Shown one piece after another: positions 1 to 15,775 of a stretch of DNA of 23,577 bases (position 1 is the first letter of the stretch; each line of letters starts with the position of its first letter). The position numbers and the translations under genes were made by a program. The notes beneath the pieces were generated by a model. It was not told the origin of the DNA. It saw only the letters and a list, made by a program, of their open reading frames with translations, and made no database searches. This stretch comes from a virus: the IMG/VR virus record IMGVR_UViG_3300006117_000052, positions 1 through 23,577 of that record, one strand, 5' to 3'.

Positions 1-1002
1 ATCAATTTCTGATTGAGTGTCGTCTGTTTTATTTTTTGCAATATCAGAAGAACCATATGTTGATCCAAGAAGAGGAACAGCAAGATCTTCTTGAACTGAT
101 TCATTGCGCTGTTTTGCATAATAAGCTGCAAGCGCCATTTCCTTACGCTTTTCTTTTGACTTACCAGCAAACTTAGGATTCTTTGAATGAACGAAATCAT
201 GAATGGTTTCACCAGCAGTTGTTGACTTAGTTAGCACTTCGTCAAGAGCTTCTTCATGAATATGGATAACATGTCCGCCATCAACGGATTTAGTATTATG
301 AGTTAAACCGTCTTTCTTGAAAGAAGATTTTTTGTATGCTGATTCAGGACGATTATAACCAAGTCCATGGATATCATGATGCTGGTCGACAACTCGAGTT
401 GAAGACACGTGTTCATTACCTTTTGTATGAACAGAAGCAGAACCATCTGGATGAAATTTAACTCGAGCTAATCCTTTCATACCTTTAACTGTTTTTTTAG
501 CAGCTTGGTGAGCTTTACTATTTTTATCATATGCTTCGTCGATAACTTCTTCCTTCATAGCTTTTTCTTGTTTTTCCTGTTCCATGCCCTTAGCACGGAA
601 CTTGTTAGCTTGCGCTGCACGCTTTTTAAAAATAGGACCAGAACGACCCTGAACATCTGTCATGGCAACCTTAGCTGCTTTATGAGCTGCACGATGTAGA
701 AGGTCAGTTGAAAGCTCATCAAGAGTTTCTTCTTTTACAGCAGTAAATGCAGCTTTCTCAGCTTCTTTTTGAGTATATCCTAGGCGAGCATTGATTGCCT
801 TATCAAGAGCATAATCAACTTTTCCAGTGAACATACCTTCATTATCATGAGGATATTCATGCTTCTGGTGAACATGCATAGCAACAAACTTCTGTTCATC
901 ACCAGCCTTTGGCTCGTAATCAACGCCTGGATCTTTTCCAAGATTACCAGGAACAGTTTTAACTGATCTTGTTCCTAAAATATCTTTAAGCTGCTTTGCC
1001 AT
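1..1002 (-). CDS. Putative prohead core-type protein, C-terminus cut by window edge
   Basis: Open for 334 codons from ATG at 1002 to the window edge with no stop, so the C-terminus is missing. The start is supported by GAGGAA about 10 bases upstream, overlapping the end of the preceding gene. I do not recognise a named family. The protein is rich in Lys, Glu, Ala and His. It carries repeated acidic motifs: K-E-E-T-L-D-E-L at residues 90-97, K-E-E-V-I-D-E-A at 150-157, H-E-E-A-L-D-E-V at 249-256 and a weaker N-E-S-V-Q-E-D-L at 300-307. A helical F-V-H-S-K ... A-L-A-A-Y-Y segment lies near 270-295. T4 prohead protease cuts after Glu in L/I-x-E sites, so the motifs may be processing sites (inference). 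It sits where T4 has gp68 and gp21, but no protease signature is visible. A prohead core or internal head protein is the best guess. Confidence 0.75.
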   Translation of the reverse strand, partial: MAKQLKDILGTRSVKTVPGNLGKDPGVDYEPKAGDEQKFVAMHVHQKHEYPHDNEGMFTGKVDYALDKAINARLGYTQKEAEKAAFTAVKEETLDELSTDLLHRAAHKAAKVAMTDVQGRSGPIFKKRAAQANKFRAKGMEQEKQEKAMKEEVIDEAYDKNSKAHQAAKKTVKGMKGLARVKFHPDGSASVHTKGNEHVSSTRVVDQHHDIHGLGYNRPESAYKKSSFKKDGLTHNTKSVDGGHVIHIHEEALDEVLTKSTTAGETIHDFVHSKNPKFAGKSKEKRKEMALAAYYAKQRNESVQEDLAVPLLGSTYGSSDIAKNKTDDTQSEID

Positions 1003-1008
1003 TATTTC

Positions 1009-1215
1009 TTATTCCTCTGATTCTGAATCCTGTTCAGTATTTATATCTTCTGCAGGATTAAACATTGATTGAGCCACTTCAATTTTTTTATTGTCAACAG
1101 CTACAGCAATTCTATCTGTTAGAATAGAATTAAATGCTGCTTCAAAATCTATCGGCTTCTGTTCATAAGAAAATTTTACTAAATCCTGAATAGAATGCGT
1201 TGTTTCATTATCCAT
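1009..1215 (-). CDS. 67: Prohead core protein, gp67-like
   Basis: A 68-residue acidic protein directly after the portal gene, the position of gene 67 in T4 (80 residues there). T4 gp67 is part of the prohead scaffolding core and is cleaved during maturation. The middle of this protein, around residues 24-52, has the pattern usual for gp67-like proteins of T4-type phages: a helix with A-F-x-S-I-L-x-x-R-I-A followed by K-K-I-E-V-A-Q-S-M-F. The C-terminal end is a run of Asp, Glu and Ser. GGAG lies about 8 bases before the ATG. It ends 6 bases before the next gene, whose ribosome-binding site overlaps this stop. Assignment rests on position, size and this short pattern, so it is good but not certain. 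Confidence 0.75.
   Translation of the reverse strand: MDNETTHSIQDLVKFSYEQKPIDFEAAFNSILTDRIAVAVDNKKIEVAQSMFNPAEDINTEQDSESEE
1038..1045 (-). promoter_or_regulatory. T4-type late promoter before the left-edge gene
   Basis: An exact TATAAATA on the minus strand, inside the 3' end of the gp67-like gene and 36 bases before the ATG at 1002. The predicted leader is about 30 bases and includes GAGGAA. Exact match and good spacing, though within coding sequence. Confidence 0.5.
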
Positions 1216-1228
1216 TTTTTATCTCCAC

Positions 1229-2983
1229 TTATTTATTTTTTGCTAGAATTTGAGCAACTGACTTGTAATCTGCTATATCTTTTAATGTTTTATTCTTTTT
1301 ATTTTTTAGAAGATTGTACTTTGCTTTGGCTTGCTGCATTTTTTTATTTTGTTCATCAGTTGCAGGAGTAGCATCAGTATCTTCATCATTGGCTAAAGGA
1401 TTCTGTTCAGTATCGCCTTTTTCTTCACCTTCACCAAAAGGTGCATTAGGATCTTGATCATTCATCATCATTTGTTGATCCATTGGATTCATCCAACGTT
1501 TATCACCAGAATCAGTTTCTTCTTTAATTTCTTTATCTTGCTCTTCAATATCTTCATCATTCTGCTGAAGGATATTTTTACGCGCCCACTCGTGCGAGTA
1601 ATACTTACCAATCATATCCTGCATGTTGCGCATGAGGTTAATACGATTATCAAGAATCTCACCTTCCTTCAACTCATTGAAGTAATTGTCCTTAGTATAA
1701 TCATATTTAAGATCAGCAGCGATATTGTTAAAATCTTCAATAGTCATAATTTGCTTAAGAACTAGCTGCTTCTCAAGCATTTTAGTAAAGAGCATCGAGA
1801 ACTTAGCACGTAATCTTGAAACAAAACGAGCGAACTTCAATTCATCACGAGTAACTTCTGTAGCACGTCCAAGCGAGAACAATGCGTCAGAGTTAAGGCG
1901 ATTGATAGGAACATTCAATGTGCCATAGAATTTCTTCTGGAAGTAAAGAACGTCGTCCATCTGACCAAGTGTCTGACCACCAGGAAGTGTAGTTACTTCT
2001 GTACCACGACCACCTTCACGACGAGGCAACCAATAGTCTTCGAGCATCGACATAAACTTACGATCATCTCTTACGTTGCCAGATTCAGCGTCATAGATCA
2101 AACGGTTTTTATGCTTAACCATGATATCACGAACATACTGCTCGGCTTTCATTTTAGGAAGATTACCAACGTCAATATACCAGATACGACGTTCAGGAGC
2201 ACGAGCAAGGCGGTAGATAACAAGTGCATCTTCAAGAGTGCGTAGCTGATTTAGAGCCTTAATAGCTTTGTGAAGATATGAAAGCACCATAGTGCCATTA
2301 GTATCAGTTAATCCTGATGTAACATGAAGGATAGAGTCCTTAGCAATACGTAATCCGTTAGTTGAAGGACCAACAGTTTTATTGCCGTAATTAAAACCCT
2401 TATCATTAAAAATATAATATTCATTTTGTGTCTTAGTGATAACAGCTTCACCACCTTCACCACCCTTAACTCTTTGTTTTACAATTTCACGGACCTTGCG
2501 GATCTTACGTGGATCAATAAAACGAATTTCTTTAATACCAGCTTTTGTATCTTTATCATCAATGATAACATGATAATACAAACGACCATCCACATACCAA
2601 CGACGATAAATTTCGTAGGCATAGCGGCGGAAATCAAGAATGTTTACAATGTTATTAAATTCTTCTAGAATAGCTTTTTTAAGCTTATCAGAAACTTCAA
2701 GATTATCTAAATCTAACTTAACAATATCTTTTTCATCGATCGCCATTGTTTCATTAACAATTTCGTCGATAGCTGCATCACATTCAGGCTGTAGAGCCAT
2801 TTCTCTATATTTTGTAACTAGCTCGGCTTCAGTTCTTACCGTACCATCAAGATCAACATATGTACCATAACTACCGCCAGCAGCTAAGACTAATGCACCA
2901 TCTTCGGTCTCTTTTGGAGCGAATGAGGGCGCTAAATCTTGTGCTACTTTGCGTTTAAATTCGAAACCGAATAATTCTGCCAT
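1229..2983 (-). CDS. 20: Portal vertex protein gp20
   Basis: The portal protein forms the ring at the special vertex of the capsid, initiates prohead assembly, and is the channel through which terminase pumps DNA and to which the neck attaches. The protein is about 584 residues from ATG at 2983 (T4: 524). The open frame extends 11 codons upstream to a GTG at 3016, but that GTG lies inside a hairpin. The N-terminus M-A-E-L-F-G-F-E-F-K-R-K is typical of gp20, so I choose 2983; its ribosome-binding site is weak (AAAGAAAG). The body shows portal-family blocks: an R-F-I-D-P-R-K-I-R-K segment near residue 155, Y-R-L-A-R-A-P-E-R-R around 257-266, and R-D-E-L-K-F-A-R-F near 380. The last ~120 residues are an acidic, low-complexity tail. 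Position between gp19 and a gp67-like gene matches T4. Confidence 0.96.
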   Translation of the reverse strand: MAELFGFEFKRKVAQDLAPSFAPKETEDGALVLAAGGSYGTYVDLDGTVRTEAELVTKYREMALQPECDAAIDEIVNETMAIDEKDIVKLDLDNLEVSDKLKKAILEEFNNIVNILDFRRYAYEIYRRWYVDGRLYYHVIIDDKDTKAGIKEIRFIDPRKIRKVREIVKQRVKGGEGGEAVITKTQNEYYIFNDKGFNYGNKTVGPSTNGLRIAKDSILHVTSGLTDTNGTMVLSYLHKAIKALNQLRTLEDALVIYRLARAPERRIWYIDVGNLPKMKAEQYVRDIMVKHKNRLIYDAESGNVRDDRKFMSMLEDYWLPRREGGRGTEVTTLPGGQTLGQMDDVLYFQKKFYGTLNVPINRLNSDALFSLGRATEVTRDELKFARFVSRLRAKFSMLFTKMLEKQLVLKQIMTIEDFNNIAADLKYDYTKDNYFNELKEGEILDNRINLMRNMQDMIGKYYSHEWARKNILQQNDEDIEEQDKEIKEETDSGDKRWMNPMDQQMMMNDQDPNAPFGEGEEKGDTEQNPLANDEDTDATPATDEQNKKMQQAKAKYNLLKNKKNKTLKDIADYKSVAQILAKNK

Positions 2984-8727: not shown

Positions 8728-9449
8728 TAGAAATGACCTTCACTGAATGGATCTTGAGCCGTAAAATCTATGAAACCTGAAGATTCATTTGCCATGATAT
8801 CATTTGTTCCTGTACCTTCAATATTATCTAGGTTATATTGTTCAACCTCGATATAATCATCATCTTCATTTGTAATAGGTTCATTCTGTTCTGTCATAAT
8901 AGAATAATCAAGAATGTTAGTGCTATACTGAGTTTGGATACGATCAATTTCTGGAATACCAGTGCTGAATGTTTCGTCACTGTATTCGAATAATTCACAA
9001 GTCATTTCCCAAGTCTGTAATGAACCTAATTGATAGAACATTTCAAACTTGTTGACAAATTTAATTTGAAAACATTTATTGTTCAATGGAAAATAAATTA
9101 AATCGCCTTCGCGTGGTCTAGTAATTGCTGTGTATGCACCAATTTCATTAGAGAATGTTCTTTGTGCAATAGAGAAAATAACCTGATCTCGAATTTCAAG
9201 ACCAAACTTAGACATGAAATTACCATCGCCAGAAAATCCATCAACTGATTTGATATAAAATTCTACAAGATAAGCATTGGTATACGATGATTGATCGTCA
9301 GCTGTGTAAACCTGATCGAGGTTATTAATATTACGAGGAATGTAAAACATATCCTCACCATAAATTTTGATCGCTTCAATAATCAAATTTTCCAGCAAAT
9401 CTTGTTCGCCCGAAGATTTATAGTTATTGAAATAAAAATTAGTTGACAT
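8727..9449 (-). CDS. 14: Neck protein gp14
   Basis: A 240-residue protein (T4: 256) with the gp14 N-terminus: F-Y-F-N-N-Y, then E-Q-D-L-L-E-N-L-I-I-E-A-I-K-I-Y-G, then Y-I-P-R-N. A conserved G-D-L-I-Y-F-P motif occurs near residue 115 and W-E-M-T-C-E-L-F-E-Y near 145. Together with gp13 it forms the neck that seals the DNA-filled head and receives the tail. The acidic segment around residues 185-215 is less conserved. The ATG overlaps the stop of the preceding homing endonuclease gene as TGATG. In T4-like phages gp13 normally lies directly upstream; here the endonuclease has been inserted between the two. Confidence 0.93.
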   Translation of the reverse strand: MSTNFYFNNYKSSGEQDLLENLIIEAIKIYGEDMFYIPRNINNLDQVYTADDQSSYTNAYLVEFYIKSVDGFSGDGNFMSKFGLEIRDQVIFSIAQRTFSNEIGAYTAITRPREGDLIYFPLNNKCFQIKFVNKFEMFYQLGSLQTWEMTCELFEYSDETFSTGIPEIDRIQTQYSTNILDYSIMTEQNEPITNEDDDYIEVEQYNLDNIEGTGTNDIMANESSGFIDFTAQDPFSEGHF

Positions 9450-10126
9450 CAGATTATATTCTTATGTTTACATTTGGCATTGTGGTAACGACCTATGGTT
9501 CCTGCATTGCCCTCATATTCACAATGCTGACATTTAATTTTCTTATTATTTAGTTCTTTGAAATGTGTTGTTTCTCTAATTTGGTTCTTGCGTTCTTCAG
9601 AAAGTTTTTTGCCTCTGTTAGCAGCTGCAGCCATTTCACGAGCTTTAAAATTATCTTTACCTACATTTTTACCAATCATTGATTGGCGACGTTTTTCTCG
9701 AACTTCAATATCAGAACTTCTAGTGTCTCTTGTAGCTAATCCAGCGAGATATTTTTCTCTAACTGATGGGCGGTACATCGCTTCTTTAGTTTTTTGTGAA
9801 ATTTTTTCTCTTATTGATAACGAAGAATTTATATCAGTTGTCCAATGACCCCATTTATGCTTACGTAAATTATAATATTTTTGACCTAATTCTTCATTTT
9901 TAATAAAGGAAAGCCATTTATATTCCTCTTCGAACATCTGATCTCTGTTAGAAATATTCTCAATTAATATTTTTCTTGTGAAATCTTTAGGTCTACGCTT
10001 AAATGCTTTTCTCATCCTATTCGAAGAACAAATATATCCATCATTTTTAAATCCCCAATGACATCCAACATAATACATTTTACGTTTTTTATCAAACCAA
10101 AGATAAACAAACCCATACTTTTCCAT
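9449..10126 (-). CDS. GIY-YIG homing endonuclease between gp13 and gp14
   Basis: A free-standing homing endonuclease of 225 residues. The frame is open upstream to 10153, but ATG at 10126 has a strong AAGGAG site 8 bases away and begins M-E-K-Y-G-F-V-Y-L-W, so I choose that start. The GIY-YIG core is residues 3-76: F-V-Y at 6-8, Y-V-G at 19-21, G-C-H-W-G at 21-25, an Arg in C-S-S-N-R-M at 33-38, and the likely catalytic Glu in F-E-E-E-Y at 65-69. Residues ~100-190 hold NUMOD3-like basic DNA-binding repeats. The C-terminus has a zinc finger with Cys199, Cys202, His215 and Cys219. Such genes spread by cutting phages that lack them near the insertion site. It is basic and Lys-rich, unlike its neighbours. 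Its own promoter lies upstream. Confidence 0.9.
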   Translation of the reverse strand: MEKYGFVYLWFDKKRKMYYVGCHWGFKNDGYICSSNRMRKAFKRRPKDFTRKILIENISNRDQMFEEEYKWLSFIKNEELGQKYYNLRKHKWGHWTTDINSSLSIREKISQKTKEAMYRPSVREKYLAGLATRDTRSSDIEVREKRRQSMIGKNVGKDNFKAREMAAAANRGKKLSEERKNQIRETTHFKELNNKKIKCQHCEYEGNAGTIGRYHNAKCKHKNII

Positions 10127-10156
10127 TTTAAAACTCCTTAAATTATAGAACATTAT

Positions 10157-13382: not shown

Positions 13383-13406
13383 GATCAAAGCTCCGCTGAT
13401 GCTGTA
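13375..13406. repeat. 32-bp direct repeat at fibre 3' end, copy 2
   Basis: Identical over 32 bases to 14605-14636. It covers the last codons of the fibre (S-A-E-L and stop) and the first bases of the small accessory gene. With the 87-bp repeat it brackets the variable cassette. Confidence 0.85.
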
Positions 13407-14578
13407 TATGTAACATTAGAAATATTGCCTTCTCCAGAACCAGAAGGAGTTTGTGCAAAAGTAATTTGTCTCGATGTAATAATTGCTGCTGATGGTGAAC
13501 CTGATGCTGTACCTGCATTTGTATATGCTGGAATAGTAACAGTTGGCGCTGTTCTCATTGTTACAGGCAAATATAAACTAGGATAACCAAAAGAAGCCAC
13601 CGATTGAAAAAATCTAGCAAAAAATATTCCGCTTTCTTGAACATAATATCTCTGACACTGCACCAATTGGTCGCTGTAGATTTGCAGCTCGTAAGGATTG
13701 GCTTTGGTTCCGACTTCGAGCTGGACGCCTGTGATGTACAAGCTCTCATCCGCGCCCGCCGTTCCAGAAGCGTTCCAAGAAACTTGAAACCCTATTTGTG
13801 TAGCTGTAGAAGAAACTGCCCCCGTGTACGCATATAACACCCATCCCGTTGTTATCGATGTGCTAGTGCTTACAATTGTTGATTCTCCGGTCCATGCTCC
13901 ACCAGTCATGTTGCTGAAGCTTTGATCAGTTCCAGTACCGGTGTAAATATTTATACCTATTGGTTGGCTTAAATTTGCACCCGCTTTTGCATAGAAAGAA
14001 AGCGTAATACTTTTTCCTTGCAGGTCGACGCTGTTCAGCGTTTCACAAGCCTGTCCCAAAGCATAAGCAGATGTAACCATGTTGCCGGAGGCGCGTTGTA
14101 ATTTGGCAGCATATTGAAACCCAGTTAAACCAGATGCAACTTGCGAAAAAGTTCCCGCGCCGCCAGCCGCGCTGTAGTATGCGACAAAGCGATCGATGCT
14201 GGGGTATATGGAACTATTGTTTTGAAGAGCGCCAGAAGTACCACGTTGAGCAAATAGCATATTCCCATTTATAAGATGGTTGCGTTTGAAGCTGGACGCC
14301 ATTGAAAAGTTACCGGCAACTGTTGTATCACCAGTAATATTAACTGTATTACTAAATGTAGCAGCACCAGTATGTGTTGTTGTATTACTAAATGTAGTGG
14401 CACCAGTAATATTAACTGTATTACTAAATGTAGTGGCACCAGTAATATTAACTGTATTACTAAATGTAGCAGCACCATTTTGTGTTAGTGTACCTGACAC
14501 AGCAACTGATTGAACAGAAGTTGTACCTAAATTAGATGTTGGTTGACCAACAATGTTTGCTACTTGTAATGTTGACAT
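13385..14578 (-). CDS. Tail fibre with exchangeable C-terminal cassette, copy 2
   Basis: A 397-residue fibre. Residues 1-9 are M-S-T-L-Q-V-A-N-I. Residues ~36-83 hold four 12-residue stalk repeats of the type T-F-S-N-T-V-N-I-T-G-A-T, encoded by 36-bp DNA repeats. The signature S-F-K-R-N-x-x-I-N-G-N near residue 100 marks the start of the receptor-binding part. This contains V-D/R-x-D-R-F-like I-D-R-F-V-A-Y-Y and later G-V-Q-L-E-V-G-T-K-A-N-P-Y-E followed by Y-S-D-Q-L-V-Q-C-Q-R-Y-Y, which I know as a widespread block in phage tail fibres. It ends T-A-S-A-E-L, like the paralogue upstream. The C-terminal coding part is moderately GC-richer than the core genes. Likely binds a cell-surface glycan. 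Confidence 0.85.
   Translation of the reverse strand: MSTLQVANIVGQPTSNLGTTSVQSVAVSGTLTQNGAATFSNTVNITGATTFSNTVNITGATTFSNTTTHTGAATFSNTVNITGDTTVAGNFSMASSFKRNHLINGNMLFAQRGTSGALQNNSSIYPSIDRFVAYYSAAGGAGTFSQVASGLTGFQYAAKLQRASGNMVTSAYALGQACETLNSVDLQGKSITLSFYAKAGANLSQPIGINIYTGTGTDQSFSNMTGGAWTGESTIVSTSTSITTGWVLYAYTGAVSSTATQIGFQVSWNASGTAGADESLYITGVQLEVGTKANPYELQIYSDQLVQCQRYYVQESGIFFARFFQSVASFGYPSLYLPVTMRTAPTVTIPAYTNAGTASGSPSAAIITSRQITFAQTPSGSGEGNISNVTYTASAEL
14286..14372. repeat. 87-bp perfect direct repeat before variable cassette, copy 2
   Basis: Identical base for base to 15459-15545. It encodes the end of the stalk repeats and the start of the S-F-K-R-N signature, the junction between the conserved stalk and the divergent receptor-binding part. 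Long enough to serve homologous recombination. Confidence 0.9.
14330..14473. repeat. Four tandem 36-bp stalk repeats
   Basis: Four contiguous 36-base units (14330-14365, 14366-14401, 14402-14437, 14438-14473), in frame, each encoding one 12-residue T-F-S-N-T-V-N-I-T-G-A-T-type stalk unit. The second unit differs (T-T-T-H-T-G). The paralogue upstream has three. Confidence 0.9.
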
Positions 14579-14612
14579 TTATTAATTACCTGTATTTGAT
14601 ATTGGTGTACAT
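14579..14612 (-). pseudogene. Deletion scar of the small accessory gene
   Basis: Between the two paralogous fibres, the minus strand starts with ATGTACACCAAT, like the first codons of the intact small gene (ATGTACACTAAT at 13382), and jumps to AAATACAGGTAATTAA, like that gene's last codons. About 150 internal bases are missing, leaving only a frame-broken remnant of 8 codons. The placement is the same as in the intact copy: after a fibre stop and before M-S-T-L-Q-V-A-N-I. Confidence 0.65.
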
Positions 14613-14636
14613 GATCAAAGCTCCGCTGATGCTGTA
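14605..14636. repeat. 32-bp direct repeat at fibre 3' end, copy 1
   Basis: Partner of 13375-13406; perfect over 32 bases. It covers the stop of the 386-residue fibre and the start of the deleted small-gene remnant. Confidence 0.85.
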
Positions 14637-15775
14637 AAGTTTCCATAGTAATAGGCACCGGCAGTGGACGCGCCAACTCCGTAAATTTGAAATTGACCTG
14701 AGTATGGATTTAATGCCAGCGAGTTGAGATTTGTAGAGGAAACTGAACTTGTAGCCATCGATGGGGCGGTTCGCATTTCAACAGCAAATGATTGTTGGTA
14801 AAACATTGCTGTTGAGTTCAAAATGTAACCGGCTTGACCAAATTTACCAGCTTGATAATACCTCTGACACTGCGCCAACTGATCGCTGTAAATCTGGCGC
14901 TCATAGGGCGTGGCAATTGACCCTGCCTCAAGTTGCACATTACCAATCGTCCACGTTCCGCTGGTCTGCGCGCCAACAGAAAGAACAATCTGCAAGCCAG
15001 TCGTAGCCGCAGAAGGAATGGCAATCTGCACATTGTAGCGCGTCACCGTCGAGCTGACGGTAAACGTTCCGGTGGCGATGGAAGTGACCGTAGGAGACGC
15101 CAAAGTGCCAAACGTGTTCGTCGTGTTGGCGTAGTAGGCAGTCCACGTCACGGTCGTCAAAAGACTGTTCGCCAGATCGACGGAGAAGGTTGCCGTCGTG
15201 CCAGCAAGATCAGCGCAGTTGAGAGCTTCGATACGCTGCGCGAAATTGATGGCAGTGACGGATGCAGCACCAGTGAACTGATAGCGATACTGATTTGCCG
15301 TCGCGCCAGCCACTTGCTGACCCGTCACGTTCGCGCCTGTGCAGTAAGCGTAGAAACGGTCAACCGTATAGGTCAAAGCCGCACCAGCGGTGATCGTTTG
15401 TGCCGCGCCAGCATTGCGCTGGTCCACCGCGCAATTTCCATTGATGATGCGGTTACGCTTGAAGCTGGACGCCATTGAAAAGTTACCGGCAACTGTTGTA
15501 TCACCAGTAATATTAACTGTATTACTAAATGTAGCAGCACCAGTAATATTAACTGTATTACTAAATGTAGTGGCACCAGTAATATTAACTGTATTACTAA
15601 ATGTTACTGCATTATTGGTAGCAATAACAATAGCATTTGCACCAGAATTGCCTTGGAGAAATACACCACCACCCGAAGAGACAATAACTTTACCACCGAC
15701 AGTATTGCCAGAAGTAACCGTTAGATCGGTTGTACCATTAGCTGTATTAATTGTTGTTACTGAAAGTGTACTCAT
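14615..15775 (-). CDS. Tail fibre with exchangeable C-terminal cassette, copy 1
   Basis: A 386-residue fibre beginning M-S-T-L-S-V-T-T-I-N. Residues ~55-90 hold three 12-residue stalk repeats (T-F-S-N-T-V-N-I-T-G), then the signature S-F-K-R-N-R-I-I-N-G-N near residue 105. The C-terminal ~270 residues form a different receptor-binding cassette: Y-T-V-D-R-F-Y-A-Y near 138, R-I-E-A-L-N-C-A-D-L near 187, and W-T-I-G-N-V-Q-L-E-A-G-S followed by Y-S-D-Q-L-A-Q-C-Q-R-Y-Y. It ends F-T-A-S-A-E-L. The DNA of the cassette (about 14870-15455) is visibly GC-rich and uses G/C-ending codons, unlike all neighbours, suggesting recent acquisition from a GC-rich phage or prophage. The start overlaps the previous stop as TAATG. 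Confidence 0.85.
   Translation of the reverse strand: MSTLSVTTINTANGTTDLTVTSGNTVGGKVIVSSGGGVFLQGNSGANAIVIATNNAVTFSNTVNITGATTFSNTVNITGAATFSNTVNITGDTTVAGNFSMASSFKRNRIINGNCAVDQRNAGAAQTITAGAALTYTVDRFYAYCTGANVTGQQVAGATANQYRYQFTGAASVTAINFAQRIEALNCADLAGTTATFSVDLANSLLTTVTWTAYYANTTNTFGTLASPTVTSIATGTFTVSSTVTRYNVQIAIPSAATTGLQIVLSVGAQTSGTWTIGNVQLEAGSIATPYERQIYSDQLAQCQRYYQAGKFGQAGYILNSTAMFYQQSFAVEMRTAPSMATSSVSSTNLNSLALNPYSGQFQIYGVGASTAGAYYYGNFTASAEL
15459..15545. repeat. 87-bp perfect direct repeat before variable cassette, copy 1
   Basis: Partner of 14286-14372, offset 1173 bases, no mismatch over 87 bases. It sits at the boundary between the AT-rich stalk code and the GC-rich cassette. Confidence 0.9.
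15503..15610. repeat. Three tandem 36-bp stalk repeats
   Basis: Three contiguous in-frame 36-base units (15503-15538, 15539-15574, 15575-15610); the last diverges in its final bases. Same unit as at 14330-14473. Confidence 0.9.

Follow-up and report, generated by a model that had tools for sequence, protein, structure and literature searches.

A cassette mosaic at the gene 68 position of an uncultured T4-like phage, with predicted prohead protease sites at its seams

Gene order at the head locus

The DNA analysed here (hereafter the window) is a virus record of 23,577 bases, which on sequence grounds is from an uncultured T4-like bacterial virus of the T4 superfamily. The gene of interest lies on the minus strand (1–1002), with its ATG at 1002, and is truncated 334 codons later by the window edge at base 1, its stop codon falling outside. 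A contig with 99.94% identity to the window across 5,111 bases (L002) was used to complete the protein to 414 residues, of which the window therefore encodes the first 334. Upstream on the same strand we identified genes for a gp67-like prohead protein of 68 residues (1009–1215, minus strand; PHROG 1064 ‘prohead’, E=0.0002), a gp20-like portal protein (1229–2983, minus strand; PHROG 213, E=1.7e-198), and tube, sheath, terminase and neck proteins. In L002 and in the near-identical L004, the order is portal, gp67-like protein, gene of interest, two small ORFs, gp21, gp22 and gp23; L002 itself ends in the start of the gene after gp21, which L004 reveals to be gp22. A reading of the window made from its sequence alone, hereafter the sequence-only reading, had placed the gene where T4 keeps its prohead core genes, and this neighbourhood is borne out both by the gene order and by PHROG matches for the head maturation protease gp21 (L002, PHROG 207, E=2.5e-76; also present in L004), the scaffold gp22 (L004, PHROG 237, E=3.2e-70) and, directly after it, the major head protein gp23 (L004, PHROG 138, E=1.3e-165). 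The gene thus occupies the position of T4 gene 68.

Based on the portal protein, the closest annotated phage was Stenotrophomonas phage DLP_6 (57.6% identity), followed by cyanophages. The protein of interest returned no informative match to Pfam or PHROGs, and Pfam scans of both this protein and its relatives at the same position gave nothing above cut-off. The slot between the gene of interest and gp21 was found to be variable, comprising ORFs of 121 and 76 residues in L002 (5354–5951), neither of which matched a PHROG, and an ORF of 84, 543, 88 or 83 residues in L005, L007, L010 and L014. Elsewhere in the window, a homing-endonuclease-like ORF was identified among the neck-protein genes (9449–10153, minus strand; PHROG 314, E=1e-16), and L005 possesses a similar ORF after its major capsid gene. 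Two adjoining ORFs (13385–15775, minus strand) were also found from their translations to have repeated stretches in common (TFSNTVNITGATTFSNTVNITG).

Cassette architecture and acidic motifs

Relatives of the protein were collected through two scans of viral contigs, yielding 74 loci in one and the best 80 of 183 in the other. Altogether 74 loci were taken into the comparison, corresponding to 63 distinct proteins, 46 of them complete, which were reduced to 42 after exclusions and the merging of near-duplicates; L227 and L235 were excluded owing to their other architecture, the distant L023 was retained, and the starts of L165, L178, L196 and L233 have probably been placed too far upstream. 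The 42 relatives span 276–663 residues. An alignment of 11 members revealed N- and C-terminal cores common to the family, between which lies a string of cassettes varying in kind, number and order. In the window protein, an N-terminal region (residues 1–96; 715–1002, minus strand), the first part of which aligns as the conserved N-core, is followed by cassette A (residues 97–156; 535–714, minus strand), which is helical in a structural model (blocks within it at pLDDT 79–82), cassette B (residues 157–255; 238–534, minus strand) and cassette C (about residues 256–303, VLTKSTTAGETIHDFVHSKNPKF...AKQRNESV; 94–237, minus strand).

Several comparisons pointed to the exchange of these units. Cassette B comes before cassette C in L002 and after it in L009, and is replaced in L004, and among 36 proteins cassette C was preceded by 21 different upstream sequence clusters. 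L002 and L004 share 99.0% identity over 2,498 bases on one side, and 99.1% over 2,037 bases on the other side, of a single swapped stretch, the edges of which were placed by eye within cassettes A and C, off the acidic motif described below. We infer that this exchange took place by homologous recombination through the conserved cassettes that flank it. Both cassettes A and C also appear to be constrained by purifying selection, with a median dN/dS of 0.07 for A (35 pairs, 86% below 1) and 0.11 for C (360 pairs, all below 1), the pairs not being independent in either case.

The sequence-only reading had drawn attention to three near-identical acidic motifs and a weaker fourth. The three are real, being EETLDE (motif 1, residues 91–96; 715–732, minus strand), EEVIDE (motif 2, residues 151–156; 535–552, minus strand) and EEALDE (motif 3, residues 250–255; 238–255, minus strand), with cuts predicted from the sequence pattern after E96, E156 and E255, respectively. 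Shuffling the L002 protein 2,000 times gave a mean of 0.002 and a maximum of one occurrence of the strict form, EE.[LI]DE, compared with the three observed. Conversely, the fourth site was lost upon closer inspection: residues 300–307 (82–105, minus strand) read NESVQEDL, which contains no L/I-x-E, and the aligned positions in relatives read QEDLA, KEDLA, NEDLA, NEELA, KEAYA, EEAYA, NEAYA or KEANA, giving no consensus site. The description of the intervening segments as basic applies to residues 97–156 (13 Lys and Arg versus 9 Asp and Glu) and 157–255 (16 versus 12, plus 11 His), and fails for residues 1–96 (14 versus 17) and 256–414 (18 versus 25), both of which are net acidic.

Across the 42 relatives, the strict motif was observed 22 times, versus 0.07 in shuffled and none in reversed sequences, and was confined to 13 members, the other 29 lacking it altogether; a looser form occurred 67 times in 34 members (1.49 shuffled, 2 reversed). 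The bare L/I-x-E tripeptide showed mild enrichment (151 versus 114.9 in shuffled sequences) and was outnumbered by its reverse, E-x-[LI] (218), so that it is the placement and context of these sites, rather than their number, which are unusual. Furthermore, six relatives possess a single L/I-x-E which, together with the 29 lacking the strict motif, indicates that multiple cuts per chain are no family-wide feature. Use of the strict motif as a genome-wide marker of cargo was tried and dropped (11 exact DNA matches in 16 records), and proteins combining it with a strict capsid targeting sequence (CTS) numbered zero in each of eight genome sets.

Candidate protease sites and head targeting

The element retained at cassette borders was shorter than the full acidic motif. 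At the seam preceding cassette C, examined in 36 proteins, the P1 position was Glu in all 36 and P3 was Leu in 20, Ile in 8 and Val in 8, followed after the seam by Val (33) or Ile (3). Given that the acidic EE is often absent here (e.g. KKTLKE, SKVNE), the kept element is L/I/V-x-E. A second module type, searched for blind to its upstream sequence, was directly preceded by [LIV]-x-E at 32 of 35 pattern matches (L/I-x-E at 30), the three exceptions appearing by eye to be out of register or chance matches. Conserved motif spacing, which the sequence-only reading had expected, does not hold literally, since spacing varies widely among relatives; what is conserved is [L/I/V]-x-E at the seams. We read the varying distances as the outcome of swapping entire cassettes, the site being retained at the seam, rather than as a refutation.

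To relate motif positions to cassette borders, gapped BLAST alignments were replaced by ungapped homology blocks, since the former pass through unrelated cassettes. In the middle region, 98 of 266 ungapped block ends fell within motif intervals, compared with a random mean of 24.8 and with none of 2,000 random trials reaching 98, an excess that may partly reflect length variation within the motif, which itself terminates ungapped blocks. Ends of gapped blocks showed a weak excess within 2–3 residues of motif ends that was matched by random trials, and a larger one both within 5 residues (55 versus a random mean of 27.2 and maximum of 48) and within 10.

In published work on T4 head proteolysis, internal proteins and giant phages (PMC9026906, PMC5694885, PMC3012670, PMC4360716, PMC10052503), the specificity of T4 gp21 is given as L/I-X-E, gp67 and gp68 are described as cleaved to fragments, and the gp23 propeptide as comprising 65 residues. 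Two features expected of a gp21 substrate are present here: L/I-x-E at conserved positions, with three such seams in the window protein, and a gp21-type protease in the same phage lineage (PHROG 207 matches in L002 and L004). The Val found at P3 in 8 of 36 cassette C seams lies outside the T4 rule. The expectation that other head proteins of this phage would carry the same site was upheld in part. In gp23, L/I-x-E stands at the T4 maturation position in all 25 non-T4 contigs compared, no more than one alignment column away from T4 E65 (26 rows, L007 and L206 being one contig). The many L/I-x-E of gp22 constitute weak evidence because this scaffold is Glu-rich, and the gp67-like protein contains none, which counts against a fully T4-like scheme.

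The N-terminus of the protein was also compared with known head-targeting signals. An exploratory pattern picked out LKDIL at codons 5–9 (976–990, minus strand), which resembles the core of the T4 capsid targeting sequence: MAKQLKDIL and T4 MKTYQEFIAE have in common a hydrophobic-x-acid-hydrophobic-hydrophobic core. The processing Glu two residues past the hydrophobic pair is absent, the window protein reading LKDIL-GT, and the strict CTS pattern does not match the window protein. Over 27 loci the N-terminal pattern was matched by 23 of 25 family proteins, 16 of 22 proteins in the gp67 slot and 13 of 26 gp21 proteins, versus 9 of 261 other ORFs, with the caveat that the pattern was devised post hoc and that family and gp21 starts had been chosen with patterns including part of it. 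When first-ATG starts were used instead, exactly 3 of 41 proteins in G002 matched, corresponding to the gp67-like protein, the protein of interest and gp21. Matches in G003 numbered 4 of 100, one being gp67-like and the others unrelated, its family protein having been missed because of its start; those in DLP_6 numbered 3 of 214, none from genes in the portal–gp21 interval. In T4, 18 of 241 ORFs matched, including two IP proteins, Alt and a 427-residue protein at the gene 24 position, as well as unrelated ones. An N-terminal element common to family, gp67-slot and gp21 proteins is supportive of a targeting role, without amounting to proof.

Candidate role in the prohead core and related proteins elsewhere

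The explanation that we consider probable is that the protein is a mosaic of the prohead core, encoded at the T4 gene 68 position and cut by gp21 at its cassette seams. The N-terminal L-x-[DE]-I-L element, the terminal cores, or both would carry the protein into the gp22 core; once the shell had assembled, the phage's gp21 would cleave after the seam Glu, and this cleavage would dissolve the core and free the cassettes. Least certain are the last elements of this scheme, namely that some basic cassettes may stay behind with the DNA inside the head, and that cassette exchange may reflect selection on cargo, as with T4 internal proteins. A variability like that reported for T-even internal proteins, together with the appearance of related cassettes in proteins encoded elsewhere, would argue for such retention; the fragments of T4 core proteins, which are reported mostly to exit, count against it.

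It is quite possible, if not our favoured reading, that the seams are cut as predicted and all fragments exit, the seams serving to dismantle the core and the cassettes acting as volume-setting filler. Such a disposable core would be in keeping with the core-gene position of the protein, with the fate of T4 core-protein fragments, and with giant-phage propeptides that are reported to be cleaved several times and then cleared. Filler would, however, poorly explain the purifying selection on cassettes A and C, or the recurrence of the same cassettes in proteins of other phages encoded outside the head locus.

We regard as rather unlikely the alternative that the motifs are uncut, acting as flexible acidic joints or recombination seams of a core or virion protein that is never cleaved. 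The coincidence of motif ends with cassette borders and the exchange of cassettes are both compatible with such linkers, as is the placement of motifs 1 and 3 in low-confidence stretches of the AlphaFold model; this model is poor overall (mean pLDDT 48.3, pTM 0.21) and thus carries little information on seam exposure. Against linkers, the acidic part of the motif can be lost, whereas the hydrophobic P3 and the P1 Glu persist precisely at the seam, and the exchange edges in L004 lie, by eye, inside cassettes A and C and away from the motif. Finally, that the protein is a diverged gp68 homologue bearing insertions is improbable, since profile comparisons by hhalign gave probabilities of only 2.2% for cassette C (E 0.0076, one comparison), 0.1% for the C-core and 0.04% for the N-core, with no PHROG or Pfam match to gp68, despite the shared gene position and the presence in all 22 distinct gp68 sequences of T4 relatives (from 29 loci) of [L/I]-[N/D]-E before a basic C-terminal half, an arrangement recalling seam 3 followed by cassette C.

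The predicted cleavage of a prohead-core mosaic by gp21 may also be set against known systems. As with T4 gp68, which is reported to be cleaved by gp21, the gene follows gp67 and precedes gp21 (here with at least one small ORF intervening before gp21), and gp68 likewise has a conserved L/I-x-E ahead of a basic region; gp68 sequences differ in measuring 134–142 residues and in lacking exchangeable cassettes. The T4 internal proteins IPI–IPIII and Alt resemble it in the hydrophobic-x-acid-hydrophobic-hydrophobic element of the post hoc pattern and, as reported for T-even internal proteins, in diversity among relatives, whereas the window protein lacks the processing Glu, carries many units per chain and lies outside the internal-protein locus. 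Several Glu-ended prohead protease sites per chain are likewise described for SPN3US gp53 and gp54 and for phiKZ inner-body proteins, but there the repeated sites sit in a propeptide, and the descriptions cited here mention no cassette exchange. Polyvalent proteins, as portrayed in PMC5512222, are many-unit chains, likened there to polyproteins, that are believed to be delivered together with the phage DNA, but contain enzyme and peptidase domains, none of which was recognised in the window protein. The best reading is that the protein would work in the manner of a core protein in the gp68 position and a gp21 substrate; the sequence comparisons do not place it among internal proteins with a strict-sense CTS or among polyvalent proteins, given the lack of a strict CTS and of Pfam domains, respectively.

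A bolder and more doubtful extension of this core-mosaic reading is a polyprotein whose units are cut apart in the capsid by the prohead protease and delivered with the DNA as a changeable collection of short basic peptides. A single gene in the core position would then act as an exchange rack in which cassettes recombine via conserved flanking cassettes, the protease site at its seam allowing each new unit to be released. It is already known from the sources cited above (including PMC5512222) that core proteins are proteolysed, that propeptides can be cut at several places and that chains of several domains are delivered, and among the open-access PMC literature matches listed we found no gene-68-position protein with exchangeable cassettes and protease-type seams. 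Relatives vary in which units they carry, in how many and in what order, yet retain the predicted cut site at the seams. If the predicted cleavage is real, sequence alone would predict peptides released inside the heads of many uncultured T4-like phages, and the gene would represent a naturally occurring system for modular cargo in capsids.

Arrays of related modules, their seams being L/I-x-E or close to it, were also identified in Caulobacter phage Cr30, Prochlorococcus phage P-TIM68 and contig G004, differing from the present protein in being located outside the portal–gp21 interval. The Cr30 array is a 682-residue protein (L238, 7762–9810) whose modules are preceded by seams of this type, and since Cr30 is an isolate (host given in its record as Caulobacter crescentus CB15), the idea is testable on a cultured phage. 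The array genes of Cr30 and P-TIM68 (L237, 3490–6510) and an array or cassette C gene of SynMITS9220M01 (L077, 6931–8831) were all found beside or near a cytidylyltransferase-like gene, all three phages being isolates, and in contigs such as L020 and L028 a nucleotidyltransferase-like N-terminus lies within the same protein (Pfam E=0.0032 in L020, below cut-off). In contig G004, a 527-residue array gene with five loose motifs adjoins four adjoining genes (L097, 8648–14129) with strict capsid targeting starts (MFRFKDYIQE, MKNYKNFLKE, MKSFNTYLVE and MVSFKEYLEE), making this a possible locus of capsid-packaged proteins.

Between the portal and gp21 genes of DLP_6 (L078, 7858–8903), a small ‘holin’-annotated gene and the one beside it encode proteins that start with KTYNDLINE and KTWNQFKSQLPIHE, respectively, both starts resembling capsid targeting sequences that end in L/I-x-E, and the ‘holin’-annotated protein also resembles the family N-core by eye. 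In Agrobacterium phage Atu_ph07, a 250-residue protein (AUZ94987.1; L236, 7386–8138) ends in a cassette C-like stretch; its gene directly follows one annotated as ‘prohead core protein’, and CDS 170–215 of this phage are described in PMC6102473 as a cluster rich in virion proteins.
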